A program made the position numbers and the translations under genes. The notes below the pieces were generated by a model. The model was not told the DNA's origin and made no database searches. It saw only the letters and a list, made by a program, of their open reading frames with translations. From assembly GCF_002009425.1 (NCBI RefSeq), contig NZ_CP019936.1, positions 1,287,001-1,351,000 on the forward strand: a stretch of DNA of 64,000 nucleotides. The letters are read 5' to 3'. Source of the DNA: Thiosocius teredinicola. Lineage in GTDB: Bacteria > Pseudomonadota > Gammaproteobacteria > Chromatiales > Chromatiaceae. Positions 38,776 to 56,076 of this stretch are shown here, piece after piece; the first letter of the stretch is position 1; every line of letters starts with the position of its first letter.

Positions 38776-40305
38776 TTAGCTACCCTGGTTGGCGGTCAAC
38801 GCTGCCGGCGGCTGCTCGAATGCGCTGTCGTCGCCCACGTTCATCGCCTTTTCGACTTCGATCGCCGGTGTTCCCGAGGGGTTGGTGAAGCGATCGTTCA
38901 GATCCTGTACGTAGCGATCGGCATCTTCCAAGGCGCGCTGAATACGCTTGCGACTGCGCCGCGTCCAGCCGGCCGGATTGCGGCTGAAGATGCTGCGCCA
39001 GGGTTTGGTATTCGTCAGGAAGGCTGCGCTGAGGTTGCCGCGGATACCCAGGCGCTGACCGATCTTGTCTGCCGTGTGCTTGAGCGACTTGGCCGCGAGG
39101 TGACGATTGCCGTAGTGGATCGCCAGCCAGACGATGAACGTGACCAGTGCGGTCAGGTAGATGCTGATCGGCGTTGCGGTAATGGTGTTCCACCATTCGG
39201 CATTGAGTTTGAAACCATCCCATTGTCCCAGGCGCGTCGTGATACCGATGAATCCGCCGATCAGCAGCAGGGCTGCGATGGCGTCGCCGATCAGCGTGCG
39301 TTTGCGCCAGCGCGTATTCAGATCGGTCACGGCAGGAACTACTTTCTCTTCGAAGGCGCGTGCGGCTTTCTCCAGCGATCCGACGATGCGATAGGCACGT
39401 TCGATCTCGACCTGTTCCATACGCTCGTGGATCTCTGCCAGGTCGACGTCGCGTTTGCTCTCGAAGCGCCGGCGCAGTGCCTCATCGGGTATCGGGTTGG
39501 CCGCTTCGTCGTTGTAGATGGTAAAGAAACGTCCGGCGGTCAGACCGCGTTCTCCCAGCGCGCGCTGCCACGCGGCGACGACCTCTTCGGGGTTGTCTTC
39601 GCGCGCGGTGGTGTCGATCTGGTTCAGGATGTAGAGGAACTTGCCCGAGTCCTGGCGCGTAATGGTTTTCGAGACGAGGTGGTCAAGCGTGTCGCGCATT
39701 GCGCCCGGTTCCGGGTGGCGGGCATCGAAGAACACCAGCACCAGGTCGGACAAACCGATGATGTGGTCGGTGATTTTCAGCGTCGATGTGCGTTGTGCGT
39801 CGGCGTCGAACCCGGGTGAGTCGATCAGTATCTTGCCTTTGAGTGCCGGGCTGGTGCTGGTCTTGAGCTGCAGGTAGGCGTCGATGCGCGAACCTTCGCC
39901 GACCGCGACCTTTTCGATCTCGCCGCTGACCTTGTAGAACGGGAAGCGAGGGTCGGAATCGAGCGCGATGCCCGGTAGGGCATGACTGGTCGACTGGTTG
40001 CTGTAGCACAGCACGGTGAACTTGTCGTCGACCGCCTGGTTGCCACAGCGCTGCAACTTGACGCCCAGATACTGATTGATAAACGACGACTTGCCGGCAG
40101 AAAACGTCCCCAGTATCGAGACCAGCGGCCACCACGGAATCTGCGTCGCAAACGACTGTTCTGCATCGAACAACCCCATCTTGTAGGCCACGGTGTCGAG
40201 TTCGCGGAAACTCTGCACGGTCGTCAACAACACCGGGTTTTCTTGCTCGAGATGGGCTTCGAGTTGTTTGAGACGGGTCTCGATGACCGGGCCTGCGCCA
40301 CGCAT
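38776..40305 (-). CDS. Dynamin-like membrane-associated GTPase
   Basis: 509 residues from ATG 40305 (GAGGAG 9-10 bases upstream). G1 GTFSAGKSS (~66-74), G3 DSPGFDAD, and G4 NQID as NKxD variant. The middle part is helical with charged runs. Two hydrophobic segments (IAALLLIGGFIGITT and IYLTALVTFIVWLAIHY) lie near 310-385. This layout (GTPase, helices, membrane hairpin) is that of bacterial dynamin-like or YjdA-type proteins acting on membranes. Specific role unknown. Confidence 0.85.
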   Translation of the reverse strand: MRGAGPVIETRLKQLEAHLEQENPVLLTTVQSFRELDTVAYKMGLFDAEQSFATQIPWWPLVSILGTFSAGKSSFINQYLGVKLQRCGNQAVDDKFTVLCYSNQSTSHALPGIALDSDPRFPFYKVSGEIEKVAVGEGSRIDAYLQLKTSTSPALKGKILIDSPGFDADAQRTSTLKITDHIIGLSDLVLVFFDARHPEPGAMRDTLDHLVSKTITRQDSGKFLYILNQIDTTAREDNPEEVVAAWQRALGERGLTAGRFFTIYNDEAANPIPDEALRRRFESKRDVDLAEIHERMEQVEIERAYRIVGSLEKAARAFEEKVVPAVTDLNTRWRKRTLIGDAIAALLLIGGFIGITTRLGQWDGFKLNAEWWNTITATPISIYLTALVTFIVWLAIHYGNRHLAAKSLKHTADKIGQRLGIRGNLSAAFLTNTKPWRSIFSRNPAGWTRRSRKRIQRALEDADRYVQDLNDRFTNPSGTPAIEVEKAMNVGDDSAFEQPPAALTANQGS

Positions 40306-40807: not shown

Positions 40808-41965
40808 ATGCAAAGAACATTGATTGCCACGGTGACCGCAGCAGCGCTCGCGTTAGCCGTACCGGTGTTTGGCGCCGACACCCCCCCCAGCACAGGCAAT
40901 AGCGAAGATATCTTTGTCGTAAAAGAGTCTTCGGAGACGCCGACGATCGTGGTCAGTGGCAGCGTCGTGCCATTTAAAGAAGTGACGCTGGCCGCGCAGT
41001 TGCCCGGGCGGGTCAAATACATGTCCGGCATCGAGGGCGACAAATTCGACGCCGGAACGACGCTGGTGGCGCTGGATGAAACGGAACTGCTGGCCAAGCG
41101 CAGCGCCGCTTATGCGCAGCTGGCAGCGGCAGACGCTGAGATGCGCAATGCCAACGTGCAGTACTCGCGCGAGTTGTGGTCGCCGCAGTCGAAAAACGCA
41201 CCCGGTGGAATGGGAATCCCCAATCTGTTCGATCAGATGTTCACCCGTCCGGCCGAAGATATGTTCGGCGGGCGCGACCGCACCGCTGAGCGCAGTGCCG
41301 ATCTCTACGCCTCCAGCACCCGCATGGAACAGGCACGCAGTTCGATCCTGCGCGCCCAGTCGGAGATTCGCGCAATCGATGCGAAATTGCGCGACGCCAA
41401 GAGTCTTGCGCCCTTCGACGGGGTGATCGTCGAGAAGTTTGTCGAAGAAGGCGACACGGTTCAGCCTGGTCTGCCGATGCTGAAGTTCGCCGACGTGACC
41501 TGGCTGCAGATCGAAATGGATGTACCGGCACGTCTCGCCCAAGGGCTCGAGCCGATGGAAGTCCTCGAGAAGGCCGCAACGTTCGATGATCATCGCGAGC
41601 CGGTCGACGTGCGTGTCGCCCAGGTGTTTCCGATGGCCGATGTGCAGCGCCACACCATCAGGGTGAAGTTCGACATCCCGCAGGGTGTTTCCAAGCCGGG
41701 CATGTACGCACGGATTCAGATTCCGGATCGCACCGGCCCGGTCAAGAGCCAGTTGCCGGTCATTCCCAGCACGGCAATCCGTTACCGCGGCAGTCTGCCG
41801 GTGGTGTATATCCAGAACGACGAAGGACGCCCCGAACTGCGAATGATTCGCCAGGGAAAACGCCTGGGTAACGGGATGACGATGGTACTGTCGGGTGTCG
41901 CACCCGGCGACCGCGTATACCCGAATCCAGGCCCCGACATGATGAGTCGAAGCCGCGGCGAATAA
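40808..41965 (+). CDS. RND efflux periplasmic adaptor (membrane fusion protein)
   Basis: 385 residues: Sec signal peptide (MQRTLIATVTAAALALAVPVF-GA split), lipoyl/barrel halves (VTLAAQLPGRVKYMSGIEGD and LAPFDGVIVEKFVEEGDTV), helical hairpin (~90-190, unusually Met/Arg-rich in RPAEDMFGGRDRTAER), beta-barrel (VRVKFDIPQGVSKPGMYARI) and proximal domain. It couples the inner-membrane pump 67 bp downstream to an outer-membrane channel that is not encoded nearby. Confidence 0.9.
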   Translation: MQRTLIATVTAAALALAVPVFGADTPPSTGNSEDIFVVKESSETPTIVVSGSVVPFKEVTLAAQLPGRVKYMSGIEGDKFDAGTTLVALDETELLAKRSAAYAQLAAADAEMRNANVQYSRELWSPQSKNAPGGMGIPNLFDQMFTRPAEDMFGGRDRTAERSADLYASSTRMEQARSSILRAQSEIRAIDAKLRDAKSLAPFDGVIVEKFVEEGDTVQPGLPMLKFADVTWLQIEMDVPARLAQGLEPMEVLEKAATFDDHREPVDVRVAQVFPMADVQRHTIRVKFDIPQGVSKPGMYARIQIPDRTGPVKSQLPVIPSTAIRYRGSLPVVYIQNDEGRPELRMIRQGKRLGNGMTMVLSGVAPGDRVYPNPGPDMMSRSRGE

Positions 41966-42032: not shown

Positions 42033-45000
42033 ATGAGCGAGAACGACACGCGCCCCTCCGAATCGCCGGAACCGGTCGATAGTCCGAACCTCGGGCTCGC
42101 CGGCAGCATGGCGCGCTTTTTCATCAAATCCCCGTTGTCGCCGCTGTTGTATCTGGCGATGTTGTTGCTCGGTATCCTCGGGCTGTTCGCCACGCCGCGA
42201 CAGGAAGACCCGCAGATATCGGTGCCGATGGTCGACCTGATTGTTCAGTACCCCGGTGCCGAACCTGAGCAGGTTGCCTCGCTGGCGGTGCAGCCGCTCG
42301 AGCGCATCATGTACGAGATCGAGGGTGTCGATCACGTCTACTCGGCGAGCCAGCGCGGCATGGGCATCGTGACCGTGCAGTTCGATGTCGGCGAGGAGAT
42401 GGAGAACTCGCTGGTCAAGGTCAACGACAAGCTCGAATCAAACATGGATCGCATCCCACCGGGTGTGATGCCGCCGTTGGTTAAAGCCAAGGGTATCGAC
42501 GACGTGCCGGTGGTGACGCTGACCTTCTGGTCGGAGAAAGACTATAACAGCGACGGTATCCCCGACGTCGACGATTCGCAGTTGCGTCGCCTGGCGCAAT
42601 CGGTGCTGCAGCATATCAAGGAGATTCCGGACACCGGTGACAGCTTCGTCGTCGGTGGGCGTGCCGAACAGGTCACGATCGAGGTCTATCCGGAACGCTT
42701 GGCCGGTTATGGGTTGAGCCTCGGGCAGGTTGCCGACGCCATTCAGAAGTCCAATGTCGAGATGCAGATGGGCGGGGTCGAGTCCGGCGGCACCCACATG
42801 ATGGTGGTGTCCGGTGCCTTCCTCGAAACGGTCGAGGACATCAATCGTCTGCAGGTGGGGGTGCATAACGGCGCGCCGGTTTACGTGCACGATGTCGCCG
42901 ATGTGCGCCAGGGGCCCGAAGACGCCAACCAGACGGTGGCCTATTACACGGGTGCTGCTGCCGAGAATCCCGACCTGGCGATCAGTGTGCCGGCGGTCAC
43001 TATCGCTGTCGCCAAGAAAAAAGGTACTAACGGCGTCAGCGTCGCCGAGGCGATTCTCAAGCGTGTAGAGAGCCTGCGCGGCCAACTCATTCCGAACGAT
43101 GTGCACGTCAGCACGACGCGTAACTACGGCAAGACGGCGGAGCAGAAGGTCAATGACCTGATCTTCAAACTGTTCATCGCGACCTTGTTCGTGTTCGTGC
43201 TGGTATGGATAGCGTTCCGTGCATTGAAGCCGGCGTTCGTCGTGTTGTTCGTTGTGCCGGTCGTGCTGCTGTTCACGATCCTGTGCGCCATGTTGCTCGA
43301 CTTTACGATCGACCGCGTGTCGTTGTTCGCGTTGATTTTCTCGATCGGTATCCTGGTCGACGATGCGATCGTGGTCGTTGAGAACATCTACCGGCGATGG
43401 CTCGAACAGGGGCAGACCGATGAGGACACCGCGGTGGACGCGGTGCGCGAGGTCGGCAACCCGACGATACTGGCCACGCTGACGGTTATCGGCGCGCTGC
43501 TGCCGATGGGCGCGGTTACCGGCATGATGGGGCCGTATATGTTGCCGATCCCGGTGCTGGGCTCGGTCGCGATGGGTATCTCATTGTTCGCCGCGTTCGT
43601 GTTTACACCGTGGTTCGCGATCCATGGTCTGTTCCGGCCGACGATGCACTATCTGGAGAGCGCCGAGAAACGCGAGCATCGTGAGGCGGAGTGGCTGGAA
43701 GGCCTGTATCGCAGGGTGCTGATGCCGCTGATCTCCGATCGGCGCAAAGCGCGCCTGTTCAAGCTCGCGATGTGGGGAACGCTGCTGCTCGCCTGCTCCT
43801 TCTTCTATTTCAAATGGGTGGCGGTGAAGATGCTGCCGCTCGACAACAAGCCGGAGTTCTCGGTGGTGTTGGATATGCCGGAAGGCACGCCGCTGCCCGA
43901 GACCGGCAACATGGCGCACATCATTGCCGAGCGCCTGCGTCGTATGCCCGAAGTGACGGCGGCGCAGATCTATGTCGGCACTGCGCGGCCATTCGATTTC
44001 AACGGCATGGTCCGCCATTACTATCTGCGTCAGTCGCCGTGGCAGGCCGAAGTGCAATTGCAACTGCTCGACAAGACCGAGCGTTCCCGTTCAAGCCACG
44101 AGATTGCCGTCGACGCACGCGAACAGGTGAAGGCGCTGGTTGCGGGCAGTGGAGCAAGGTTCTCCGTGGTCGAGATGCCACCCGGCCCACCGGTGTTGCA
44201 GTCGGTCGTTGCAGAGGTGCATGGGCCGGATCCGAAGACGCGGCGCGAGGTCGCGCGTTATCTCACCGACATCTTCGGCCAGACGGAGAGCTTGCGCGAT
44301 GTCGACAACTACATGCGCGAACCGTACGACTACTGGCACTTCGAGGTCGATAACGAAAAAGCCCAGCGACGCGGAATCTCGGTTGACGCGATAAACGGCG
44401 AACTGCGGATGGCTCTGGGGGGATTCGTGCTCGGTGACGTCAAGCAACGCGCCGGCCATGAGCCGATCAATATCGTGATCCAGGTGCCGCTTGCCGAGCG
44501 TTCGCAGATCAACCGACTCGGCGACATCCTTGTGCAGTCACCGTTGTCAGGTGTCGGTGTGCCATTGCGCGAACTTGGCGACTTCCAGCGTCGTACCGAG
44601 GCCGACATCATTTACAACAAGGATCTGCGGCCCGTCGAGTACGTGGTGGCCGACGTCGGCGGTCGCCTGGCGGCGCCGATCTACGGCATGTTGCAGGTTG
44701 AGGACAAGCTGGCTGAATTGGGCTGCGAGACTCCGGACAAGGTCTCGTTGTGCGAGAACATCCATTACACCGGGCCGCCGCCGAACGACAATGTTTCCTC
44801 GATCGAGTGGGCCGGTGAATGGACAGTGACATATGAAACGTTCCGCGATATGGGTATCGCGTTCGGCGCCGCGCTGATTCTGATCTACATCCTGGTTGTC
44901 TGGGAGTTCGGCAACTTCCGCATTCCTGCGTTGATCATGGCGCCGATCCCATTGACCCTGCTTGGCATCATTCCGGCGCACATGCTGTTCTTCCAGATGG

Positions 45001-46247
45001 GGTGGGGCGGCGAGTTCACCGCGACGTCGATGATCGGGTGGATCGCATTGGCCGGCATCATCGTGCGCAACTCGATTCTGCTGGTCGACTTTTCCGTACA
45101 CCGGATCCAGGAGGGTGATTCGGTTGTCGATGCCGTCATCAGCGCCTGTAAGACACGGACACGGCCGATCCTGATTACCGCATTTGCCCTGGTGTGCGGC
45201 TCGTCGGTGATCTTCTTCGATCCGATCTTCCAGGGCATGGCCATTTCGTTGGCCTCGGGTGTGTTGGTGTCGACCATTCTGACCCTGGTTGTAATTCCGC
45301 TGGGATGCGTTGCTGCCGCCGATTCGCTGTGCGCCGTTGCCGGTGGTACGGCGTGCCGCAAGTTCTCGGACGGTGACGAACCCGAGCCCGGTCCCGATGG
45401 CCCTGCCGGTGGGCCGCGCGTCGGTGATCCCCTGTGGGTGCGCGCCTGGAGTGGTTTTGCCGGTGTCCTGTTTACTGTGGTCGGCGCCGTATCCGGTGCG
45501 GTCGGTTGGCTCATTGGTCTGTTCAAGAGCAAACGCGAGCAATCCCCGCGACCCAGTTACGCGACCCCTACACCTGCACCTGCAACGAATGTGGCCGCAC
45601 CATCGACCGCCGCCACTGTGCAACCCGTACGCACTGCGCCGGTGCCGGCGGGACCTGAAAAGCCGAATGTTGATGCGGTGAGCGACAAGCCACCCGCGTC
45701 GGCGAGCGAAGAAGCAAAGCCCGCAGCGCCCGTTACGCCGCCGGTTACGGCCAAACGCGAAACCAGCGTTGCTCAGAGTGCGAAAACGACGCCTGCCAAG
45801 GCGGCGGTCAAACCGAAGGTCACAGCCAAGCGGGCCGAGACGGCGGGCAAAACGCAGGCGACCGAAACGGCCAAGGTCGAAGACGCGCCGGCGACTGCCG
45901 AGAAGGCGCCCGACGTCGCTAATCGCGCTGAGCCGGCCAAGAAGGTTGCTGCCGAGAAGGCGGATACCAAGGCGCGCAAGCCGGCCAAGAAACGCGTCGT
46001 GGTCAAGAAAGTCGAGCCCGAAGAAGCCAAAGCCAAGACCGACGACAGCGCGAGCACAGTCGGCAAGCGCACGGTCACGCGCAAGACGGCCAAGAAGAAG
46101 ACCTCTGCTGCCAAGTCGAACGGCACCAAGAAGACAGCCGCTAAAAAGCCGAAACCACCGGTCGTCGGCGCGCGTAAGAAGGCTTCAGGAAGGAGAGGCA
46201 TTCAATTGAAAACCCTCGGAAAGCCGGGCGGCGACGGTCTAAACTGA
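42033..46247 (+). CDS. RND transporter permease with long histone-like C-terminal tail
   Basis: 1404 residues, about 330 longer than a normal RND pump. The core (~25-1105) is complete: first helix after ARFFIKSPLSPLLYLAMLLL, the Asp pair of helix 4 in GILVDDAIVVVENI, porter domains, and helix 10-12 with NSILLVDFSV. After it come an acidic/proline linker, one extra hydrophobic segment (~1140-1163) and about 240 residues of Lys/Ala/Pro-rich sequence with KKTAAKKPKPP-type runs like histone H1 or AlgP. The tail is cytoplasmic if the extra segment crosses the membrane. Cargo is unknown; no outer-membrane factor gene is nearby. Confidence 0.9.
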   Translation: MSENDTRPSESPEPVDSPNLGLAGSMARFFIKSPLSPLLYLAMLLLGILGLFATPRQEDPQISVPMVDLIVQYPGAEPEQVASLAVQPLERIMYEIEGVDHVYSASQRGMGIVTVQFDVGEEMENSLVKVNDKLESNMDRIPPGVMPPLVKAKGIDDVPVVTLTFWSEKDYNSDGIPDVDDSQLRRLAQSVLQHIKEIPDTGDSFVVGGRAEQVTIEVYPERLAGYGLSLGQVADAIQKSNVEMQMGGVESGGTHMMVVSGAFLETVEDINRLQVGVHNGAPVYVHDVADVRQGPEDANQTVAYYTGAAAENPDLAISVPAVTIAVAKKKGTNGVSVAEAILKRVESLRGQLIPNDVHVSTTRNYGKTAEQKVNDLIFKLFIATLFVFVLVWIAFRALKPAFVVLFVVPVVLLFTILCAMLLDFTIDRVSLFALIFSIGILVDDAIVVVENIYRRWLEQGQTDEDTAVDAVREVGNPTILATLTVIGALLPMGAVTGMMGPYMLPIPVLGSVAMGISLFAAFVFTPWFAIHGLFRPTMHYLESAEKREHREAEWLEGLYRRVLMPLISDRRKARLFKLAMWGTLLLACSFFYFKWVAVKMLPLDNKPEFSVVLDMPEGTPLPETGNMAHIIAERLRRMPEVTAAQIYVGTARPFDFNGMVRHYYLRQSPWQAEVQLQLLDKTERSRSSHEIAVDAREQVKALVAGSGARFSVVEMPPGPPVLQSVVAEVHGPDPKTRREVARYLTDIFGQTESLRDVDNYMREPYDYWHFEVDNEKAQRRGISVDAINGELRMALGGFVLGDVKQRAGHEPINIVIQVPLAERSQINRLGDILVQSPLSGVGVPLRELGDFQRRTEADIIYNKDLRPVEYVVADVGGRLAAPIYGMLQVEDKLAELGCETPDKVSLCENIHYTGPPPNDNVSSIEWAGEWTVTYETFRDMGIAFGAALILIYILVVWEFGNFRIPALIMAPIPLTLLGIIPAHMLFFQMGWGGEFTATSMIGWIALAGIIVRNSILLVDFSVHRIQEGDSVVDAVISACKTRTRPILITAFALVCGSSVIFFDPIFQGMAISLASGVLVSTILTLVVIPLGCVAAADSLCAVAGGTACRKFSDGDEPEPGPDGPAGGPRVGDPLWVRAWSGFAGVLFTVVGAVSGAVGWLIGLFKSKREQSPRPSYATPTPAPATNVAAPSTAATVQPVRTAPVPAGPEKPNVDAVSDKPPASASEEAKPAAPVTPPVTAKRETSVAQSAKTTPAKAAVKPKVTAKRAETAGKTQATETAKVEDAPATAEKAPDVANRAEPAKKVAAEKADTKARKPAKKRVVVKKVEPEEAKAKTDDSASTVGKRTVTRKTAKKKTSAAKSNGTKKTAAKKPKPPVVGARKKASGRRGIQLKTLGKPGGDGLN

Positions 46248-46334: not shown

Positions 46335-46919
46335 TTGATCAGCCGGACATTCCCCTTAGGCGTGGCGTTGAGGCTGCTGGCTTCAGCGTCTCTGGGGCTA
46401 TGCCTGTCTGGTTTTGCCAATGCCGACCATCCGGCAGGTTTTGCTGCCGCGCACTATCAGTACCTGCCTGCCAACTCATTCCGAGGGGCGAAATCGGCGC
46501 CTTCGATGCGCTGGCGACCGCACGCCGCCGCCGGGCATTCGCGGCCGTCGCCTTCGATCAAGAGAGACAATCGCCAGGAACACCCTTCGGCGTTTCGCGG
46601 TTCGTATTCTCAGCTTCCCGATCGTGCAGGCGCGCGCAAAGCGGTACCGATTACGCGTGGTCAGGGTCAGGGGCAACGATTCCGTCCTGACGACAGGTAT
46701 GATCTGGGTGAACGGATCGAACCGCGTGCCGAACCCGGCGACGATGCCGCCGCTGCGCGCTTGCAGTCGCAGTTTCGTCCACCGCGTTCCAACGATCGTC
46801 CAAGCTACGAAGAGTTGCAGCGCGGAACTGATCTGCAGGGCCCCTACGGCGCGCCGCTGCCGCCCTATCCAATGACGCCGGGCTTTCCAGGTTATGGTGG
46901 TTATGTCCCACCCTGGTGA
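46335..46919 (+). CDS. Exported Arg/Pro/Gly-rich protein of unknown function
   Basis: 194 residues, TTG start (GAGGG ~10 bases upstream; an internal GTG is possible). Signal peptide with a hydrophobic core and cleavage near GFANA. The mature chain is low in hydrophobic residues, rich in Arg, Pro, Ser and Gln in the middle and ends in a Pro/Gly/Tyr-rich stretch (PPYPMTPGFPGYGGYVPPW). Likely disordered or matrix-forming. No family recognised. It begins 87 bp after the RND pump gene and precedes a second exported low-complexity protein. Confidence 0.7.
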   Translation: MISRTFPLGVALRLLASASLGLCLSGFANADHPAGFAAAHYQYLPANSFRGAKSAPSMRWRPHAAAGHSRPSPSIKRDNRQEHPSAFRGSYSQLPDRAGARKAVPITRGQGQGQRFRPDDRYDLGERIEPRAEPGDDAAAARLQSQFRPPRSNDRPSYEELQRGTDLQGPYGAPLPPYPMTPGFPGYGGYVPPW

Positions 46920-47024
46920 GGTATCGTTGCCAGCATTCAGCCATCCAGTGCCGCGCATTCCCAAGATGTGACGCGACAAGCTAATCGGCGCGACATGGCA
47001 AACAGCAGTTTTTCGAGGAGCAGT

Positions 47025-47975
47025 ATGAAGTATCAAATACGAGCGGCCACGATGGTGGGTCTAGTGTTGTTGGGCGTTGGCGTTATCGCCAGCGGCCAGG
47101 CGATCGCCTATGGTCCGCAATGGCGTCCGATCGACCCGCCACCGAATGCTATGCAGCAGCCGGCCGCGGCGGCAGCGAACGCGGTCCCTGGCGGGCCGGT
47201 GTTTCGTCCGGCGAGCATGCCGCGCAATCCGTTTTCTTATGCCAACCCCTACACGTATTCGGCCTATGGACCGGCAGCCTATGCGCCAGCCTATCCGTAT
47301 CGTGGCCGTTCCGACTGGCGCAGTCGTGCGCCGGCAGTGAACATGCCGATGGCCGGTATGCAGTATCAGCCGGGAGCCTATCAACCGCCGGCGTTTACCC
47401 AGCAATACGGCTGGCGCGCTGCACCACAGCCCTGGATCGCCGATCGTGCGATGTATCCCGGGCAGATGTTCCACACGCCGTTCGATGCCTACCAGCAGAT
47501 GTATCCTGCGTCATTCGCTTGGGCCAATCCGTTTACCGGCCCACAGCCGGTTGCCTACGGCGGTAGTCAATGGCCGGGACACTCAACGTTCGCAGGCTAC
47601 TATCCTGATCCGCGCTGGTTGGCAAACGGATACGCGGCAGCAATGTCACGCTATCCGTCGGCTTGGTCGAATGCTTATGGTTGGGGAGCGCCCGGTGGGC
47701 AGTGGCCGATGCCGCAAATGGCCATGGCCAATCCGTGGTCGCCGTCGCGTGCAGCGCCGCAAGGTTACGGTTATCGGGGTATGCCCCAGCCGCAACCGTG
47801 GTTGGGCAGGATGGCATTCAGGCCACCGGTTTATGGCACGGAGTCGCGCGCTGCTTACACGGCAGAGACATCACGCAACGAAGAGCAGTTTACTCGCGAC
47901 AATCTCCCGGGTTGGGTGACAACCTATCAGGAGAGCGAGCAGTTGGACTATTGTGCGTGGTGTGGTGGGAGTTAA
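47025..47975 (+). CDS. Exported Tyr/Pro/Ala/Trp-rich, lysine-free protein
   Basis: 316 residues from the ATG at 47025, chosen for GAGGAG seven bases upstream and a good signal peptide (cleavage near GQAIA). The mature part is built of irregular Tyr-Pro-Ala-Gly-Trp-Met-Gln blocks (SYANPYTYSAYGPAAYAPA split, QPQPWLGR) and contains no lysine. The last ~45 residues are normal in composition and end YCAWCGGS, holding the only two cysteines. Such composition suits a self-assembling envelope or globule-coat protein, but this is inference. Stop is 25 bases before the ParA-type gene. Confidence 0.75.
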   Translation: MKYQIRAATMVGLVLLGVGVIASGQAIAYGPQWRPIDPPPNAMQQPAAAAANAVPGGPVFRPASMPRNPFSYANPYTYSAYGPAAYAPAYPYRGRSDWRSRAPAVNMPMAGMQYQPGAYQPPAFTQQYGWRAAPQPWIADRAMYPGQMFHTPFDAYQQMYPASFAWANPFTGPQPVAYGGSQWPGHSTFAGYYPDPRWLANGYAAAMSRYPSAWSNAYGWGAPGGQWPMPQMAMANPWSPSRAAPQGYGYRGMPQPQPWLGRMAFRPPVYGTESRAAYTAETSRNEEQFTRDNLPGWVTTYQESEQLDYCAWCGGS

Positions 47976-48000
47976 ATAAAAACCCAGAAAAGGGGATTTG

Positions 48001-48636
48001 ATGGTCACCGTAATCGGGAGTCTGAAAGGCGGGTCGGGAAAGAGCACCGTAACGTTCAACCTAGCGATCTGGTTGGCAATGGCCGAACAGAATGTCGCTG
48101 TCGTCGACGCCGATCCGCAGGCGACACTGACGGACGTGCTCGAGGTTCGCCGCGAAGAGGGTTTTCAGCCAGACGTCGAACGCTTAGGCGCCGCGATACT
48201 CACCAACCACGATGAACTGAAGCAGCATGGCGAGGTGTTGATCGACGTCGGCACTGCGTCGATGGACAACCTGAAAGCCGCGATCGCGGTCGCCGACCGA
48301 ATTATCGTCCCCGTTCCCCCCAGTCAAGCCGATATCTGGTCGACACAACGCTTCCTGCGTTTCGTCGATGCCCAGGTGGGCGATCGTCAGCCCGAGATTG
48401 TCGGGTTCATCAATCGGGGCGACACGCACCGTGCGGTGCGCGAATCCGATGAAGCAGCTGCGGCGCTGGTGTCGTTGCCGGGGATCCGTTTTCTCAAACC
48501 GCGGCTGTCGCAACGCACGGTGTATCGCCGCTCGTTCAGTGAGGGCTTGGCGGTCTTCGAACAGGAACCGCGCGGCAAGGGCGCGGCCGAATGGAATGCC
48601 CTGGCCGCAGTGCTCTACGCCGACGTACTGAGCTGA
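48001..48636 (+). CDS. Orphan ParA/MinD-type ATPase
   Basis: 211 residues. Deviant Walker A KGGSGKST at the N-terminus, AVVDADPQATLTDVL, Walker B region VLIDVGTA, and IIVPVPPSQADIWST. Complete core but no DNA-binding N-terminal extension, and no parB-like gene follows, so it belongs to the cargo-positioning type (VirC1, BcsQ, McdA, ParC relatives) rather than plasmid partition. It is tightly linked to the next gene (7-base gap), pointing to the TPR membrane protein as partner or cargo adaptor. Confidence 0.88.
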   Translation: MVTVIGSLKGGSGKSTVTFNLAIWLAMAEQNVAVVDADPQATLTDVLEVRREEGFQPDVERLGAAILTNHDELKQHGEVLIDVGTASMDNLKAAIAVADRIIVPVPPSQADIWSTQRFLRFVDAQVGDRQPEIVGFINRGDTHRAVRESDEAAAALVSLPGIRFLKPRLSQRTVYRRSFSEGLAVFEQEPRGKGAAEWNALAAVLYADVLS

Positions 48637-48643
48637 GCACCAG

Positions 48644-49441
48644 ATGCCCGGCAACCTGATACTGGCGTTCGTCCGCTGGCTGGCTACACATCTCGTTGTG
48701 ATCACATTTGCAGGCTTTGCGGTTACCGGGCTGTGGGTGTTCGGACTCGTGGATCTCGAGGACCTTGCCGCGACCTTGCGCGGTCAGCCGCGACCTTCGG
48801 CAACGGCCGCCGTCGACAGTACCGGCCAGCCGCTTAAGAGCGCTGCGCCAACAGGGCCGAGCGCGCCGCTCGAAGACCCCGCGGGGGTGCAGAAATCTGC
48901 ACCGGATGGTGATACAGCGGGAGGCGAGGGTGCGCCCAAGCCTGATCACCGGCCGGATCTGGACGAATCCCCCATCTCGCTCCCCGACGAGCCACCGCAG
49001 CCGAAGATGATCGGTGGCAGTATCCCGGTGTTCAAGGAGCACGCCGAACAACCGCCATCGTCGACTGCAACACCGGCAGAAAGCGAGACCGATCCCGCGG
49101 TTTCGACCTTTCGTCCGCCCGAGGTCGTCGCCGACGAGGTGCCGGTGCAGCCGAGTCGGGCCGACATGTTGCAGCAGGCGCGCCGTGCTTTCTGGAACGG
49201 CGACTACGAGGCCGCCGAAGCCGCCTACATGGCGCTGATTTCGGAGTATCCGGGCGATGCGGACGGGTTTGGCGAGTTGGGGAACCTCTACCGGAAAACG
49301 GGGCGTAACGCCCGCTCCCTGGACGCCTACTACGAGGCGGGCCGTCGCCTGAAAGCGATGGGCGAGGGTGAAAAATTGCAACGGATCATTGATTTGCTGG
49401 TCGAAGCAGGGGACGATCGAGCAGATAGGCTAAAGCAATAG
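48644..49441 (+). CDS. Membrane-anchored protein with Pro-rich linker and TPR domain
   Basis: 265 residues. One N-terminal membrane helix (~10-32), a ~130-residue Pro/Ala/Asp/Ser-rich linker predicted to be disordered, then two TPR-like repeats (~175-240: QARRAFWNGDYEAAEAAYMAL and GFGELGNLYRKTGRNARSL split). A scaffold that could link an envelope structure to the ParA-type ATPase encoded just before it. No homologue recognised by name. Confidence 0.78.
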   Translation: MPGNLILAFVRWLATHLVVITFAGFAVTGLWVFGLVDLEDLAATLRGQPRPSATAAVDSTGQPLKSAAPTGPSAPLEDPAGVQKSAPDGDTAGGEGAPKPDHRPDLDESPISLPDEPPQPKMIGGSIPVFKEHAEQPPSSTATPAESETDPAVSTFRPPEVVADEVPVQPSRADMLQQARRAFWNGDYEAAEAAYMALISEYPGDADGFGELGNLYRKTGRNARSLDAYYEAGRRLKAMGEGEKLQRIIDLLVEAGDDRADRLKQ

Positions 49442-49521
49442 ATGAACGACACGAGGGTACGACGTATGACGGGCATGGGGTTACTTGACCTAACTCAGAA
49501 TTAAATGCCGGTTGCATCGTA

Positions 49522-49569
49522 TATAATTACATTAGAAAATTCGGATACACCGAATTAAAGGGGCGGCCT
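49522..49569 (+). promoter_or_regulatory. -10 element and 5' hairpin before the coiled-coil gene
   Basis: Perfect -10 TATAAT (49522-49527) without a clear -35, followed by a perfect 7-bp hairpin AATTCGG/CCGAATT with loop ATACA (49538-49556) placed directly against the AAAGGGG ribosome site. If transcribed, the hairpin would modulate translation or mRNA stability. Confidence 0.5.
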
Positions 49570-50067
49570 GTGAGTAACAATAACGATGCCACTGACGTTG
49601 TAGCGGACGCGAACGCAGGGTATGCGCGACTCTCAGAAGTTTTTGAGTCGAGTGCCAAGCGATGGGAACTGATTGTTTATCCATCGCTTTTTGCCTTCAT
49701 CATCCTGGCTGCCTACGGCTTTTACCTGATCTACAACCTCGCCAAGGATGTTCACTACCTGGCGATCAGTGTCGACACCAATATGCAGCTTGTGGCCGGC
49801 AACATGCAGAGCGTTTCGAACAATATGAGTCAGTTGACGGCGAACGTACGCGCAATGACCGTCACAATGGATTCGATCGACAACCGTGTGGCCATACTCG
49901 AGCCGATGCTCTCCAATCTCGACTCGATGGATAACGCCATCCAGTCCATGACCTACGCAACGCACACGATGGGGCAGGCAACCCAGTACATGCAGACGGA
50001 TATGTCGCGCCTGAACCACAACATCGGTCGGCCGATGTCGTTCATGAACGCCTTCATGCCGTGGTGA
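49570..50067 (+). CDS. Membrane-anchored coiled-coil protein of unknown function
   Basis: 165 residues, GTG start behind AAAGGGG. Short polar N-terminus, amphipathic helix, one membrane helix (~38-60, SLFAFIILAAYGFYLIYNL), then ~85 residues of heptad-like helix rich in Met, Asn and Ser (MQSVSNNMSQLTANV, MTVTMDSIDNRVAIL), similar in style to the periplasmic or HAMP-adjacent helices of chemoreceptors. It ends RPMSFMNAFMPW. No enzyme motif. Probably an oligomeric envelope component of the preceding gene set. Confidence 0.72.
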   Translation: MSNNNDATDVVADANAGYARLSEVFESSAKRWELIVYPSLFAFIILAAYGFYLIYNLAKDVHYLAISVDTNMQLVAGNMQSVSNNMSQLTANVRAMTVTMDSIDNRVAILEPMLSNLDSMDNAIQSMTYATHTMGQATQYMQTDMSRLNHNIGRPMSFMNAFMPW

Positions 50068-50195: not shown

Positions 50196-52310
50196 TTACT
50201 GCTGGTGTTCTTCGTCGAACGAGATCGTGCTCGACGGTTCCTGCAGGAAGTAACCCTGGATGTAGTTGATCCCGGTATTCCACAAGATGGCCAGGCTGTT
50301 GGCGTCTTCGACGCCGCTGGCGATGGTCTTGTAGCCATCTGCCTGTAGCTTCTGATTCACCGCGTTCATCTTGTCCTGCTGTCCGGATTGCGTCGCGAGG
50401 TCGCGCATGTATTCCGGTGCCAGCTTGACGACATCGATCGTAAACTGCTTGATCAGCGCCTGATTGGCCTCGTTGTCGACGTAGTTGTTGATCGCGATGT
50501 TGCAGTTGATCTTCTTCAGGCCGTCGATCAACTCACGCGCGGGTTGAATCGCGCTGCGCAGATCGGTCTCGCGGAACTGGAACACCAGCCAGGCGCCCTT
50601 GGCGCGGAATTCACGCAGGCAATCACAGATCCACAACAGCATCGAGTCGTCTTCGATGCCGGCGCGTGACAGGATCACGTAGAAAATCACCTTCTTGCCG
50701 TTGCGCCGGTGGCTGGCTAATTCGCGGATGGCGTTGCGGACCACCCAACGATCGATCTCGGCGAGCCGGTTGGCGTCGTGTGCCTGCGACAGGAAGGTTT
50801 CGGGTTCGAGTTCTTTGCCGTCTTCGCCAACCATGCGCAGGTAAACGGAGTAGTTCTCGCGCGTATCTCCCTGCAGACTGACGATCGGCTGGTACTTCAA
50901 GCGGAAGCCGTCGTTGGCCAGCGACTGGTCGATCTGCTTGACCATGGCCGCATCGGTCTCGGCCATGTGCGTGGTGTCGCCGGGGATCTGGTCGCTGTAG
51001 AAAACGACGCGATTCTCGCCTTCGGTGCGGGCGATACCGGTAGCGCGGCACGAGCGGTTGATCAGTTCATGCGCCGTGATATCCATGCCTTTCTCGGCAC
51101 GCGTTACGCCGACCGAATAGATCGGGGTAACCGGGGAATCCTTGATGCTGTTGAACGCGTGGCTGCGCAGACTTTGCAGACAGCGTTCGGCGACCTGCAG
51201 CGCCGGTTCTTCCTCGCTGCTGACGATCATGAAGTCGTGGTCACCAAAGCGAGCGATCGTATAGGCCTGCGGTACGGTCGACGACAACACGCCGGCGACC
51301 TCGCCGAGCATCTCTTCGGCGCAATCGAAGCCGCAGTTTTCGCGCATGTCGGCGTAGTTGGTGATGGACAGTTGGATCAACGAATGGTCGGAATCGCTGT
51401 CTTCCGAGCCGGAGACCAGGCCTTCGAGGCGCTCCATGAACGCCTGACGGTTGAGGAAACCGGTCTGTGCGTCTTTGCTGGTCAGTTCTTCGATGCGTTT
51501 TTGCAGTTCGAGACTCTGGCTCTGGTCATAAACCACGACCTGCGTGCATTGCTCGTCGTCGATACTGGCCGGCGAGAATTCCATGCGGGCACTGAACGTC
51601 TCGCCGTCGCCTGTTACGCAGTGGAAGTCCTCACTGTGTTTGCCCGTCTCGGTGAGCTTGCGCAGGGCGTCCTTGAACTCGGTCCGCGACTCGGCGTCGA
51701 TCATGTCCATGATCGGCAAACCATCGATCTCGTCGAACGAGTCGTAGCCGAACAGTTCCAGGTAGGCCTGGTTGACTTTCAGGTACATGCCTTCGTGGAT
51801 GTAGGCAATGGCGTCGCGCGAGCTTTCGACCAGCAGGTTGTTGGTTTCTTCAGCCTCATTCAGCATGCGGCTGAGACGCTCGACGTCGCGTCGCAACGTC
51901 AGCGTTTGGTGTTCACGCTGAATGGCAAGCGCAAGGTGTTCGACGTCTTCGATGTTGACCAGGTCTTGCAGGCGATGCTCGATCGCCATCTTCTTGTGCG
52001 ACAGCGGATCGGCGGCGACCAGCACGATGCTCGACGTTGGCAGCAAAGCGCGGATCTTGCCGATTGCCTGGATGCACGGCGGCGAGTCGGCATCGGCGTT
52101 GATAACGACGATCTCGCAAGGATCGGTTGCCATCTGCTGATCGAGCGAGTCGAGACTGTCAGCGATCTTTACGTGGGCTGCCTGTCCCTGGTTGCGCAGG
52201 GCATTGGCGTAACTGTCGGCGGTCGCCAGCGGGCAACCGACAACCAGCATCTCTACCGGGTTGTCGCCAAGCTCTGGATTCTGCATTGCCAATTCAGCGT
52301 ATGCGGCCAT
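50196..52310 (-). CDS. fimX: FimX-like c-di-GMP receptor (REC-PAS-degenerate GGDEF-EAL)
   Basis: 704 residues: receiver-like domain (~15-135) lacking a clear phospho-acceptor, PAS (~155-285), GGDEF whose signature is replaced by FGDHDF, and EAL where the EAL motif reads SVYLRM and the DDFG catalytic pair is NNYV. Both enzyme domains are therefore inactive, as in Pseudomonas/Xanthomonas FimX, which binds c-di-GMP through the EAL domain and promotes type IV pilus assembly. Downstream of a 638-residue PilZ-like protein on the same strand. Confidence 0.88.
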   Translation of the reverse strand: MAAYAELAMQNPELGDNPVEMLVVGCPLATADSYANALRNQGQAAHVKIADSLDSLDQQMATDPCEIVVINADADSPPCIQAIGKIRALLPTSSIVLVAADPLSHKKMAIEHRLQDLVNIEDVEHLALAIQREHQTLTLRRDVERLSRMLNEAEETNNLLVESSRDAIAYIHEGMYLKVNQAYLELFGYDSFDEIDGLPIMDMIDAESRTEFKDALRKLTETGKHSEDFHCVTGDGETFSARMEFSPASIDDEQCTQVVVYDQSQSLELQKRIEELTSKDAQTGFLNRQAFMERLEGLVSGSEDSDSDHSLIQLSITNYADMRENCGFDCAEEMLGEVAGVLSSTVPQAYTIARFGDHDFMIVSSEEEPALQVAERCLQSLRSHAFNSIKDSPVTPIYSVGVTRAEKGMDITAHELINRSCRATGIARTEGENRVVFYSDQIPGDTTHMAETDAAMVKQIDQSLANDGFRLKYQPIVSLQGDTRENYSVYLRMVGEDGKELEPETFLSQAHDANRLAEIDRWVVRNAIRELASHRRNGKKVIFYVILSRAGIEDDSMLLWICDCLREFRAKGAWLVFQFRETDLRSAIQPARELIDGLKKINCNIAINNYVDNEANQALIKQFTIDVVKLAPEYMRDLATQSGQQDKMNAVNQKLQADGYKTIASGVEDANSLAILWNTGINYIQGYFLQEPSSTISFDEEHQQ

Positions 52311-52384
52311 AACTACGTGTTTCCTCGCGCTTCAAAGCTGGCGATAACGTGAATGCTGAATCCCTTGAGTTGCGAACACAACAT

Positions 52385-54301
52385 TTAAAGATTACCCCAC
52401 AGATCACTGAATTCATCACCGGGGCGTTCGTCTTCATCGTTGGTTGGTTTTTCTTCCGTTTCGACGAAGACGAAATGATAACGCGCAAACGCGCTATTGA
52501 ATTCCACCAATTTGGTCAATCGGACGAGTTGGTCCTTGTTGTCGATGGTCAACCACAGATCGACGCCGGTCTGCAGGCTCATCGTGCCCATCACCAGGCT
52601 GGCGGTTGCATTGCTCGCCGGATCGGTGTCGTTGATCACCAGGCACTTGAATGACGGTGCGCGCTTGCGCTTCGAATCCGAGGCGGCTTCGCGCACATCG
52701 GCCGCGCCGCAACGCGTCGCGATCACCTCAAGACCAAGGTCTAGGCTATGGTCGTCGAGCTGTTTCATCCAGCGGATCACACCCAGACCGTATTTTCGCC
52801 GATCCGACGGTGACTCGATACCGATCAATTCACCGATTTTGACGCGTGGAATATGCAATCCATGCCAACGGATGCAATAACCGCCCGCGCTCTCGTTGAT
52901 CGTGGTAACCGTGTGCGACGCCGTCTCGTTGGGCAGTGGCTCGCGTGGCTTTTCTTCAACCGCCGGTTGCGGTTGTGCCGGCGGATCCACCGGCGTCAGC
53001 AGGGTGCTGTCGATCAGGATCGAATCCGACGTCAACTCGCTGTCGAGCGGCGCCAGTGAAACCTGTTCCAGGCTGCCGGCGCTCCACTGCGGTTTGCGGC
53101 GGCGCGGATTCGGTTCGGTTTCCTGGAGTGTGAACAGCGGCGCACGCGTTGTACTGTAGGGACGCTCGTCCATTGCCAGCAGGTTGCCGTGCACGGCATG
53201 CAGGCCGGCGACCACGTGCAGATCGAAATTGAGCTTGGTGCGCACAAAGCGCCGATCCGGCGGCCGACTCCACGCCATGATCAGCAGGCGCAGCAGCGGA
53301 CGGGTCACGACCGGTTTGCCGGATTGCACGCCGGCGTTGGTTTCCCACGGCGCCTGTTCGAAATCGCTGCGCAGCTTCTTCAACAGCTCGCGTACGTCGA
53401 GTATGGCGACGCGTCGCCCGACCACCGGGGTGCGCAGTGAATTGTGCATCGGCGGCAAATCGCTCCACAGGTCGACATTGAAGCGACCCAGGCTGGTTCC
53501 GCCGTCGTCTTTGGCCAGAATCTCGGTGTAATGCGACCACTCGAGCAGACGCGAGTACAGCAAGCGCACATGGCTCTGGCGCAAGCGGTGCGGCGTCGCG
53601 CTGGCAAACAGCATCAGCGAGCGGAAGGTGTCCTCGATGGTCGACAGGGCGCCGGCTTCTTTGCTGTCGTCCGGCTTGACCGGCACCTGGTGAACGTTGT
53701 TTTGCGAGGCATAGGCATAGATGTTGTTGATCTCGCGCCAGATGCCTTCCGGCCAAGCGACGTAGATCAAGGCGCACTGCATCAGGGTTTCGCCGAGATA
53801 GTGCAGGGCGCGATGCAGGGCGATGACCAGCAGGCGGCGATCGAAGTGCTCGCTCTTACCGGCGACCATGCGCTCGATAATGATCTTGTAGGAGTTCGCC
53901 AGTTCCTTGAGTAACTCACGCGCCAGCGAGGCGGTCTTCCAGCCCTTGGGCGACAACGGTAGGCCGACGTCGACGTAGTGCCGCTGCAGGTTGATGATGA
54001 TGTATTCGACCGGCGGGCGGAATTTTTCGATGATCTTGGCGCGCAGCAGGTCGGGGACTTCGATGCGGTTGAACTCGACCAGCATGCCGAATACCCGGCG
54101 CGCGGTCTCGCCGATGTTGGCCATCGGTAGCGTCTCGAACCAAGCTTCGGTCTCCTTGAGATCCAACAGCATGCTGTCGGCACTGGGTGGCGACTGCTTT
54201 GGGATCTTCAGGCCGAGCAGGGGAAGCTGAGAGGCGTCGTTGCCGTTGGACGAATGATTCACATCCGAATTGTTGCTTGAATCGTTCAATTTAGCCGCCA
54301 A
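52385..54301 (-). CDS. Large protein with PilZ-like C-terminal part
   Basis: 638 residues with TTG at 54301 (a later ATG near residue 44 would remove a Ser/Asn-rich head). Residues ~45-400 are helical and unlike a family I can name. About 475-545 resembles a PilZ beta-barrel (GGYCIRWHGLHI..IGELIGIES..GLGVIRWMKQL..LGLEVIA), although the RxxxR c-di-GMP arm is not obvious. Being 74 bp upstream of fimX it is likely a partner in the same pilus/c-di-GMP pathway. Confidence 0.68.
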   Translation of the reverse strand: MAAKLNDSSNNSDVNHSSNGNDASQLPLLGLKIPKQSPPSADSMLLDLKETEAWFETLPMANIGETARRVFGMLVEFNRIEVPDLLRAKIIEKFRPPVEYIIINLQRHYVDVGLPLSPKGWKTASLARELLKELANSYKIIIERMVAGKSEHFDRRLLVIALHRALHYLGETLMQCALIYVAWPEGIWREINNIYAYASQNNVHQVPVKPDDSKEAGALSTIEDTFRSLMLFASATPHRLRQSHVRLLYSRLLEWSHYTEILAKDDGGTSLGRFNVDLWSDLPPMHNSLRTPVVGRRVAILDVRELLKKLRSDFEQAPWETNAGVQSGKPVVTRPLLRLLIMAWSRPPDRRFVRTKLNFDLHVVAGLHAVHGNLLAMDERPYSTTRAPLFTLQETEPNPRRRKPQWSAGSLEQVSLAPLDSELTSDSILIDSTLLTPVDPPAQPQPAVEEKPREPLPNETASHTVTTINESAGGYCIRWHGLHIPRVKIGELIGIESPSDRRKYGLGVIRWMKQLDDHSLDLGLEVIATRCGAADVREAASDSKRKRAPSFKCLVINDTDPASNATASLVMGTMSLQTGVDLWLTIDNKDQLVRLTKLVEFNSAFARYHFVFVETEEKPTNDEDERPGDEFSDLWGNL

Positions 54302-54444: not shown

Positions 54445-55455
54445 CTAGAGCCGCGTTATCGGCATTTTGTAGGGTTTTCCCGGCAGTTCACGCACCATTC
54501 GCGGCACCAGATACCCTGGCAGCCGTTCGCGCAGCGCATCCAGCAGAGACTTCGCGCGTTCCAGAGGGACGTCGAAATGCGCTGCACCGGCCACCGGGTC
54601 GAGCAGATGCAGGTAATACGGCATCACCCCGATTCCGAGTAGCGAGTCACTGAGCTTCGCAAGGGTATCGGCATCATCGTTGATGGACTTGAGTAATACC
54701 GATTGGTTCAGCAGGTGTATGCCGGCAGTGCGCAGCGGTTCGAGCGCCTGGGCCAGGGTGTCGCTGACCTCGTTCGGATGGTTGATGTGGAGCACGATCA
54801 CGGTTTGAAGTCGGCTATCGGCCAATCGTCCGACGAGCCCGGCGGTGATCCGTGACGGCAGCACGACCGGCGTTCGCGTGTGCACCCGCAGGCGGCGGAC
54901 ATGCGCGAGCCCTTCCAGCCGGCTGACGATATCGGCGAATCGTTCGTCGGACAGGCTCAGTGGGTCGCCGCCGCTCAGAATCACCTCGTCGATATCGGGG
55001 CGTTGTGCCAGATGATCGATCGCCGCCTGCGATTGCTGCCGTCCGGTCAGGTCCACGTAGGGAAAATGCCGGCGGAAACAGTAGCGGCAGTGCACCGCGC
55101 AGGCCCCGGTGGTGACCAGCAGCGCGCGCCGCGCGTATTTCTGCAACAGGCCATCCTGTTGCGCGGCGTCGAGATCGCCGACCGGGTCGCTGACGTAGCC
55201 TTCGCTGGTTTCGGTTTCCTGTACCCGGGGCAGCACCTGCAGCAGCAGCGGATCATCCGGATCGCCGCGGCGCATCAGTTCGATGAAATAGCGCGGCACG
55301 CGCAGCGTGAAATCGTTGCCCAGCAGCTGGGTGTCGGGCCGATCGGCGGGCGACAGCCCGATCAGGCGCAACAGCTCGGCTGGATCGGTCACGGCCTGGG
55401 CCAGCTCGCGTTGCCATGCTGCCGATTCCAAGCGTGAGGGGGAACAGGTTATCAT
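54445..55455 (-). CDS. epmB: EF-P-(R)-beta-lysine synthase, radical SAM lysine 2,3-aminomutase
   Basis: 336 residues from ATG 55455. Radical SAM motif CAVHCRYC with FRRHFPY, PLP-lysine region and the conserved GGDPLSLSD and HINHPNEV motifs. It turns L-alpha-lysine into (R)-beta-lysine, which EpmA attaches to EF-P. It is transcribed divergently from efp with only 38 bp between start codons, so the two promoters must overlap or sit inside the genes. Confidence 0.95.
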   Translation of the reverse strand: MITCSPSRLESAAWQRELAQAVTDPAELLRLIGLSPADRPDTQLLGNDFTLRVPRYFIELMRRGDPDDPLLLQVLPRVQETETSEGYVSDPVGDLDAAQQDGLLQKYARRALLVTTGACAVHCRYCFRRHFPYVDLTGRQQSQAAIDHLAQRPDIDEVILSGGDPLSLSDERFADIVSRLEGLAHVRRLRVHTRTPVVLPSRITAGLVGRLADSRLQTVIVLHINHPNEVSDTLAQALEPLRTAGIHLLNQSVLLKSINDDADTLAKLSDSLLGIGVMPYYLHLLDPVAGAAHFDVPLERAKSLLDALRERLPGYLVPRMVRELPGKPYKMPITRL

Positions 55456-55493
55456 TGCGCGCTTCGGTTGCTCAGTGAATTGATGAGGATTGG

Positions 55494-56066
55494 ATGGCGA
55501 CGTACAGCACAAACGAATTCAAGGGTGGACTCAAGATTCTGCTCGACGGTGATCCATGCACCATTATTGAAAACGAATTCGTCAAACCCGGCAAAGGCCA
55601 GGCGTTCAACCGGGTCAAGATTCGCAATCTCAAGACCGGCCGCGTGCTGGAGAAAACCTTCCGCTCCGGTGAATCGGTCGAAGCAGCCGACGTCGTCGAT
55701 CGTGATCTGCAATACCTGTACAACGATGGCGAGTTTTACCACTTCATGGATCCCGATTCGTTCGAGCAGACGCAGGCCGATGCGAATGCGATGGGCGAGG
55801 CGATCAAGTGGATCAAGGAGCAGGACGTCTGCATGGTAACCCTGTGGAACGGTTCGCCGATCGCCGTTGAGGCACCGAATTTCGTCCACCTCGAGATCAC
55901 CGAGACCGACCCGGGCCTCAAGGGCGACACCTCGGGCGGCGGCGGCAAGCCGGCAACGCTCGAAACCGGTGCTGTGGTGCGCGTTCCGCTGTTCATCCAG
56001 ACCGGTGAGAAGATCCGGGTCGACACTCGCACCGGCGAATACGTCAGCCGCGTCAAAGACGAATGA
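55494..56066 (+). CDS. efp: Translation elongation factor P
   Basis: 190 residues, three OB-like barrels. The modified lysine sits in PGKGQAF (residue ~34), the loop that reaches the ribosomal P site to relieve polyproline stalling. Followed after 10 bases by epmA and divergent from epmB, so substrate and both modifying enzymes are in one place. Polyproline stretches occur in window products such as the RND tail. Confidence 0.97.
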
Positions 56067-56076
56067 CATCGCGCCG

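Follow-up and report, generated by a model that had tools for sequence, protein, structure and literature searches.

What does a ParA-type ATPase do in a locus that holds no ParB partner for it and surrounds it with secreted, membrane-anchored and transport proteins? The question is raised by a locus of Thiosocius teredinicola (Chromatiaceae), found in a stretch of 64,000 nucleotides (positions 1287001-1351000 of a single-contig genome of 4.79 Mb, NZ_CP019936.1) that is analyzed here as a whole and called the window. Comparison with other genomes leads us to propose that the locus belongs to a conserved module, a putative ParA-type positioning system of sulfur-storing bacteria in which the tail of an RND pump would serve as the partner of the ATPase; we give this reading a probability of about 0.6. 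The genomic evidence makes the module a strong candidate for a role in placing sulfur globules or securing their inheritance, and it would be the first system known to do so. The reading is carried by the linkage of the genes, by the co-occurrence of ParA with sulfur globule proteins (SGP) and dsrA, and by the co-occurrence of ParA with a short motif at the end of the RND tail.

Gene content and conservation of the module

The conserved neighborhood consists of an RND periplasmic adaptor (MFP), an RND pump, one to three secreted low-complexity proteins, a DUF4412 protein, ParA, a membrane TPR protein, a DUF302 protein, a coiled-coil anchor and a dynamin-like GTPase. The corresponding features of the window, including those of transmembrane (TM) and motif level, are as follows.

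38776..40305, minus strand: dynamin-like GTPase, EHD-like by sequence (Pfam Dynamin_N, E 2e-12; nearest solved EHD4/EHD2)
40808..41965, plus strand: RND periplasmic adaptor, MFP (HlyD_D23, TIGR01730), syntenic in relatives
42033..46247, plus strand: RND permease of 1404 residues with a Lys/Ala/Pro-rich C-terminal tail of ~300 residues (ACR_tran, E 4e-148; nearest solved 6vej, TriABC)
45432..45539, plus strand: helix H13, between TM12 and the RND tail, read as amphipathic and membrane-lying (AlphaFold2; residues 207-242 of the modeled fragment)
46191..46211, plus strand: RRGIQLK motif near the RND C-terminus, proposed ParA contact peptide (motif comparison)
46335..46919, plus strand: g1, secreted Pro/Arg-rich protein with three [FW]RP motifs (signal peptide; no Pfam or NCBIfam match)
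47025..47975, plus strand: g2, secreted Tyr/Pro/Ala-rich protein with three [FW]RP motifs (signal peptide), in the slot that SGP-like genes occupy elsewhere
48001..48636, plus strand: small ParA-type ATPase of ParF-like size, 211 residues (CbiA/AAA_31; nearest solved ParF, 4dzz)
48644..49441, plus strand: membrane-anchored TPR protein, long linker with one FRP motif (one N-terminal TM helix; C-terminal TPR)
49570..50067, plus strand: coiled-coil membrane anchor g5, GTG start (alignment A1; AlphaFold2 model)

The original prediction was built on the five same-strand genes from g1 to g5. Their open reading frames (ORFs) are confirmed, as are the gaps of 25 bp between g2 and parA and of 7 bp between the ParA stop and the TPR gene, and the proteins are much as it described them. 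Both exported low-complexity proteins have signal peptides, g1 (TTG start; alternative GTG at 46362) being Pro/Arg/Ala-rich after it and g2 Tyr/Pro/Ala-rich, and neither has a known domain in Pfam and NCBIfam profile searches. Both genes were missed by a codon-usage gene caller and were traced by homology. The TPR protein has an N-terminal TM helix followed by a disordered linker and a TPR region (Pfam TPR_16, E 1e-4, under the curated cut-off).

The ATPase is a member of the ParA/MinD group, with a ParA domain and the KGGxGK[ST] signature. Its deviant Walker A motif, KGGSGKST, is intact at residues 9-16, and K9, G10-11 and G13-T16 are invariant in alignment A2. The claim that it lacks a ParB partner also stands: the genes around it encode secreted, TPR, coiled-coil and RND proteins, and no ParB- or RHH-type gene of a ParABS or ParF-ParG system was found among the neighbors seen. 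Scores fell below the cut-offs of both NF041546 (ParA family partition ATPase; 129.7 bits vs 180) and BcsQ TIGR03371 (46.7 bits vs 157.85), and the scanned neighbors include no bcs, McdB or carboxysome genes. On these results, the cellulose, carboxysome and plasmid partition readings of the ATPase were rejected. In size, fold family and deviant Walker A it resembles ParF of the ParF-ParG system of TP228 and other small partition ATPases, and ParG has a flexible basic tail, as does the partner proposed here; the module differs in lacking a DNA-binding partner gene and in the nature of the partner proposed for it, the C-terminal end of an RND permease. McdA-McdB (carboxysome) and ParC/PpfA (chemoreceptor) likewise have an orphan-type ParA beside genes of a protein-based cargo, but the module has no McdB, carboxysome or che genes, and its cargo would be periplasmic and need a membrane-crossing partner.

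In an even sample of 369 gammaproteobacterial genomes, the ParA clade (profile A2, E < 1e-35) was found in 65, as a single copy in each, and the anchor family in 78. The two occur together in 62 genomes (odds ratio 372, p 3e-51; this and all other co-occurrence p-values and counts ignore shared ancestry), a pairing that is no chance event. Among relatives, the anchor was matched in 32 of 56, a ParA orthologue (E below ~1e-60, full length) is present in most same-family genomes, and in most of these the two recur together on the same strand. Linkage was observed in ~70 Chromatiaceae/Sedimenticola-type loci, including those of Allochromatium, Thiocapsa, Marichromatium, Thiocystis, Halochromatium, Lamprocystis, Thiohalocapsa, Thiorhodococcus and Sedimenticola. 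The family order runs from MFP-RND through the secreted proteins to ParA and the anchor, with TPR, DUF4412 and DUF302 as frequent extras; DUF4412 and DUF302 were not found within the module in the window's genus (L041-L047), in contrast to L049, L051 and L157. This order is repeated in ~30 further gammaproteobacterial families, where the dynamin-like GTPase often comes last; it adjoins the coiled-coil anchor in many of them and lies upstream on the minus strand in the window. A phylum-wide sample of 359 genomes added 39 with ParA besides the window's own, none of them placed in the window's class. In the 14 neighborhoods fetched from these 39, one to three SGP-like genes mostly lie immediately 5' of ParA and the anchor lies 3'.

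With ParF as the nearest solved relative, it could be argued that the neighborhood is conserved without joint function and that the ATPase takes part in chromosome or plasmid partition. We find this hardly credible, given the linkage over many families and two groups of Pseudomonadota, the single copy, the missing adjacent ParB/RHH partner and the motif co-occurrence described below. The homologues are thus linked rather than scattered, and they do not sit in a partition or cellulose locus, outcomes that would have spoken against the original prediction.

The co-occurrence of the five genes in order, which it proposed as a check, was borne out for ParA and the anchor, which are linked in order, and not for the rest. 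The low-complexity genes are the variable part: SGP-like proteins replace g1/g2 in other families, and some vent relatives have none at the locus. Because several vent metagenome-assembled genomes and Thiolapillus carry a locus reduced to MFP-RND-ParA-anchor, the core of the module is, by gene content, these four genes, and g1, g2 and the TPR gene are accessory. A version with the five genes as the unit, a TPR/coiled-coil scaffold as what ParA positions and an unrelated RND pair could appeal to the adjacency of ParA, TPR and anchor in many families. It is nevertheless very unlikely, as the RND gene is syntenic nearly everywhere and has a tail motif that goes with ParA, whereas g1, g2 and TPR are often absent.

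The anchor is predicted to form a single long helix over residues 6-145 that includes its one TM helix (AlphaFold2, mean pLDDT 69). Alignment A1 shows a conserved RLSxxFExSAxRWE before the TM helix and a C-terminal RPMxFMNxFMPW. In L070, L071 and L076, paralogues with the same N-terminal stretch and a PMxFMNxFxPW-like end stand alone elsewhere in the genome, so the family of the anchor extends beyond the module.

The RND tail as a candidate partner of ParA

The RND pair had been taken as a mere neighbor of the five genes. That view is not supported: RND-MFP is part of the core, its tail is the best candidate for a ParA partner, and the dynamin-like GTPase upstream also belongs to the module. 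The permease is clearly a member of its family (ACR_tran, 495 bits vs a cut-off of 28), and its TM4 retains the Asp-Asp of proton-driven RND pumps (DDAIVVVEN, read from sequence). It shares an entire RND core and an adaptor with HAE/RND efflux pumps such as TriABC, but differs from them in the ~300 extra residues past TM12, mostly Lys, Ala and Pro, and no outer-membrane channel gene was seen beside the module. The tail is disordered in the AlphaFold2 model and unalignable among relatives, except for a terminal RRGI[R/Q]LK. In alignment A3 (38 sequences from many families), ~295 tail positions without an invariant column precede RGI (461-463), which is invariant together with K466, while R460 and L465 are nearly so.

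The rows of A3 were picked for having the motif, and unbiased counts come from motif surveys of ParA-bearing and ParA-lacking loci. The motif or a close variant is present in all 70 readable same-family ParA loci and in all 29 other ParA-bearing genomes (99/99; in one of these, G090, it lies in a second frame beyond an apparent frameshift), as opposed to 1 of 13 ParA-lacking genomes (p 1e-9). A fourteenth ParA-lacking case, Ca. Thiobius zoothamnicola (L124), is a natural loss experiment: MFP, RND and anchor are retained, ParA and the coat-type genes are lost, and the motif has decayed to RKSVRIK. In the 14 neighborhoods of the phylum-wide sample, the RND genes readable to the end have the motif. 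It is kept in G049 and G027, where ParA and RND are encoded far apart, and in G026, where ParA was undetected and the contig ends at the expected ParA position. The tail is missing from RND paralogues in the same genomes, and the coding pattern of the motif was matched once in the window's genome, at the RND tail. The tails in G043 and G196 (L168, L280) run as a long KAAAE repeat to the contig end, with a TolA-like look.

Since the motif follows the presence of ParA, the presumably cytoplasmic tail of the RND pump is most likely the partner of the "orphan" ATPase, as far as sequence can tell. Partners of ParA/MinD proteins are diverse and contact the ATPase via a disordered, positively charged terminus (PMC10241942), and a ParA partner motif has been described as aliphatic plus basic residues (PMC12462528). 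By sequence, RRGIRLK in its disordered basic tail fits this pattern, but it stands at the C-terminus. The N-terminal stretch of the anchor was also considered as a ParA contact; it is less likely than the RND tail, and it is intact in the ParA-lacking Thiobius.

Direct contact with ParA requires a cytoplasmic tail, so its topology is important. In the AlphaFold2 model, the TM helices are followed by the confident 36-residue helix H13 and then by disorder. H13 has an apolar core in the window protein and could be a 13th TM segment; the tail would then be periplasmic and might bind the globule coat, while ParA contacted the cytoplasmic N-termini of the coiled-coil or TPR anchors. The likeness of Ala/Pro/Lys or Pro/Glu tails to periplasmic spacers and the conserved stretch before the anchor's TM helix would suit this arrangement. 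We consider it improbable, because the motif has decayed in Thiobius with the anchor stretch intact and because of the properties of H13 itself. It has the highest hydrophobic moment among the segments measured, often has a central Arg, and is absent or plainly polar in six motif-bearing homologues (L205, L262, L254, L258, L220, L281). On these grounds the tail is judged to be cytoplasmic.

Association with sulfur globules

Sulfur globules are periplasmic and can amount to a third of the cell dry mass. The window's genome has dsrA and six matches to the sulphur globule protein family PF17228. In the gammaproteobacterial sample, PF17228 was found in 56 of 369 genomes, 50 of which have the module ParA (odds ratio 166, p 2e-41). 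dsrA is present in 54 of 65 ParA-bearing genomes vs 64 of 304 without ParA and, counted by family, in 28 of 32 ParA families. This correlation is real, but dsrA was rejected as the chief correlate of ParA, which SGP explains better within dsrA-bearing genomes: there, SGP occurs in 44 of 54 with ParA vs 6 of 64 without (p 4e-16). ParA has an SGP gene as a close neighbor in 12 genomes, on the same strand and 81 to 2689 bp away (rough chance estimate 6e-16).

The secreted proteins 5' of ParA elsewhere resemble sulfur globule proteins in their signal peptide, AWWGPxNNxGW and Gly/Tyr/Pro repeats; one exceeds the Pfam SGP cut-off (34.4 vs 26.7 bits) and two more match under it. Like SgpA-D (PF17228 for part), the low-complexity proteins of the module are secreted and aromatic/Pro/Gly-rich, and in other families the neighborhood contains PF17228 proteins. 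g1 and g2 differ in that the Pfam test did not place them in PF17228 and in having [FWY]RP motifs instead. [FW]RP, common to g1, g2 and the TPR linker, was counted at 7 sites vs 0.87 expected after shuffling (p 5e-5), and at 136 vs 24 in 43 ORFs chosen by their position 5' of ParA, a few of which are doubtful or belong to RND; as the motif had caught attention before it was tested, the p-values are indicative. FRP may be a binding motif common to the secreted and anchored parts. The anchor ends in Trp (NxFMPW), as do many secreted low-complexity proteins of the module (SPFNW, PFGW, PSFSW and VPPW in L246, L248, L257, L262 and L276), a possible common C-terminal sorting or binding signal. SgpD has been reported beside an RND-type exporter (PMC10386293). 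g5 was considered as SgpD and rejected: the published SgpD terminator was unmatched in Allochromatium palmeri (<=3 mismatches), and g5 is without the described Pro-rich repeats. The FRP-type gene of the A. palmeri locus was not matched to SgpD either.

It is conceivable that the RND-MFP pump itself is what ParA distributes or gates, with globules linked solely via the pump substrate (e.g., a hydrophobic or sulfur compound brought into the periplasm) and not positioned. The association of ParA with the RND tail motif is the tightest signal, the minimal loci lack coat genes, and the Asp-Asp pair of proton-driven pumps is kept. Even so, most families have coat-type genes between the pump and ParA, and the distribution of ParA follows that of SGP; we regard this explanation as unlikely.

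Several points weigh against a positioning role with the RND tail as partner. A motif without ParA is kept in one 88% complete genome, G122, which is the sole exception; the 14 ParA-lacking cases span about eight families, with counts uncorrected for kinship; and H13, as discussed, could make the tail periplasmic. The genome of the window has its SGP copies away from the module, all outside the window, and g1/g2 are outside PF17228. Loss of SgpD leaves globules normal (PMC10386293), and SUP05, with periplasmic sulfur storage and sgp genes, has been reported without dynamin (PMC6509183). By the last two reports, storage in itself needs neither dynamin nor SgpD; a role of the module in placement and inheritance fits better.

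Downstream of the module in the window (50196-54262), a minus-strand EAL/GGDEF/PAS protein and a 625-aa protein without a Pfam match are encoded convergently, and both genes adjoin the module in many relatives, including L205. They are followed (54448-57048) by EpmB, EF-P and EpmA, the genes of elongation factor P and its lysylation; the EpmB linkage is kept across Chromatiaceae.

Proposed mechanism and significance

It had been suggested that the ATPase positions a membrane scaffold organizing an extracytoplasmic matrix, such as a sulfur globule coat. What survives of this model is a conserved orphan-ParA set with a link to a matrix outside the cytoplasm, for which SGP co-occurrence and adjacency point to sulfur globules; the five genes as a unit do not survive. 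We propose that the ATP-bound ParA dimer is probably located on the nucleoid, like that of other ParA systems. RRGI[R/Q]LK at the end of the RND tail would take the place of ParB, bind ParA and trigger ATP hydrolysis, and the RND-MFP complex, which crosses the inner membrane, would pass the ParA-driven movement to the periplasm. There, the coiled-coil anchor, the TPR protein and the secreted Sgp-like/FRP-motif proteins would organize the coat of the sulfur globules, and shaping of the membrane around the globule may fall to the dynamin-like GTPase. Globules, or the sites at which they assemble, would thereby be spaced, and globules would be inherited at division. The mechanism in full, a nucleoid ParA that moves a periplasmic cargo across the membrane by gripping an RND tail, with a new type of ParA partner, is more tentative than the positioning role, and we put it slightly below an even chance. 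In line with the original prediction, no described system of this composition was found in the literature searched, which included sulfur globules with dynamin, DUF302 and RND efflux, with most subscription journals outside its scope.

How cells place and share out their sulfur globules is an open question. With the genes named, a motif of seven residues defined and hosts open to genetics, such as Allochromatium vinosum, it can be put to the test. If true, the proposal would show a cytoplasmic ParA acting across a membrane and would supply a partner for ParAs that have been termed orphan. Moreover, the motif and the ParA clade could act as genome markers of intracellular sulfur storage in bacteria.

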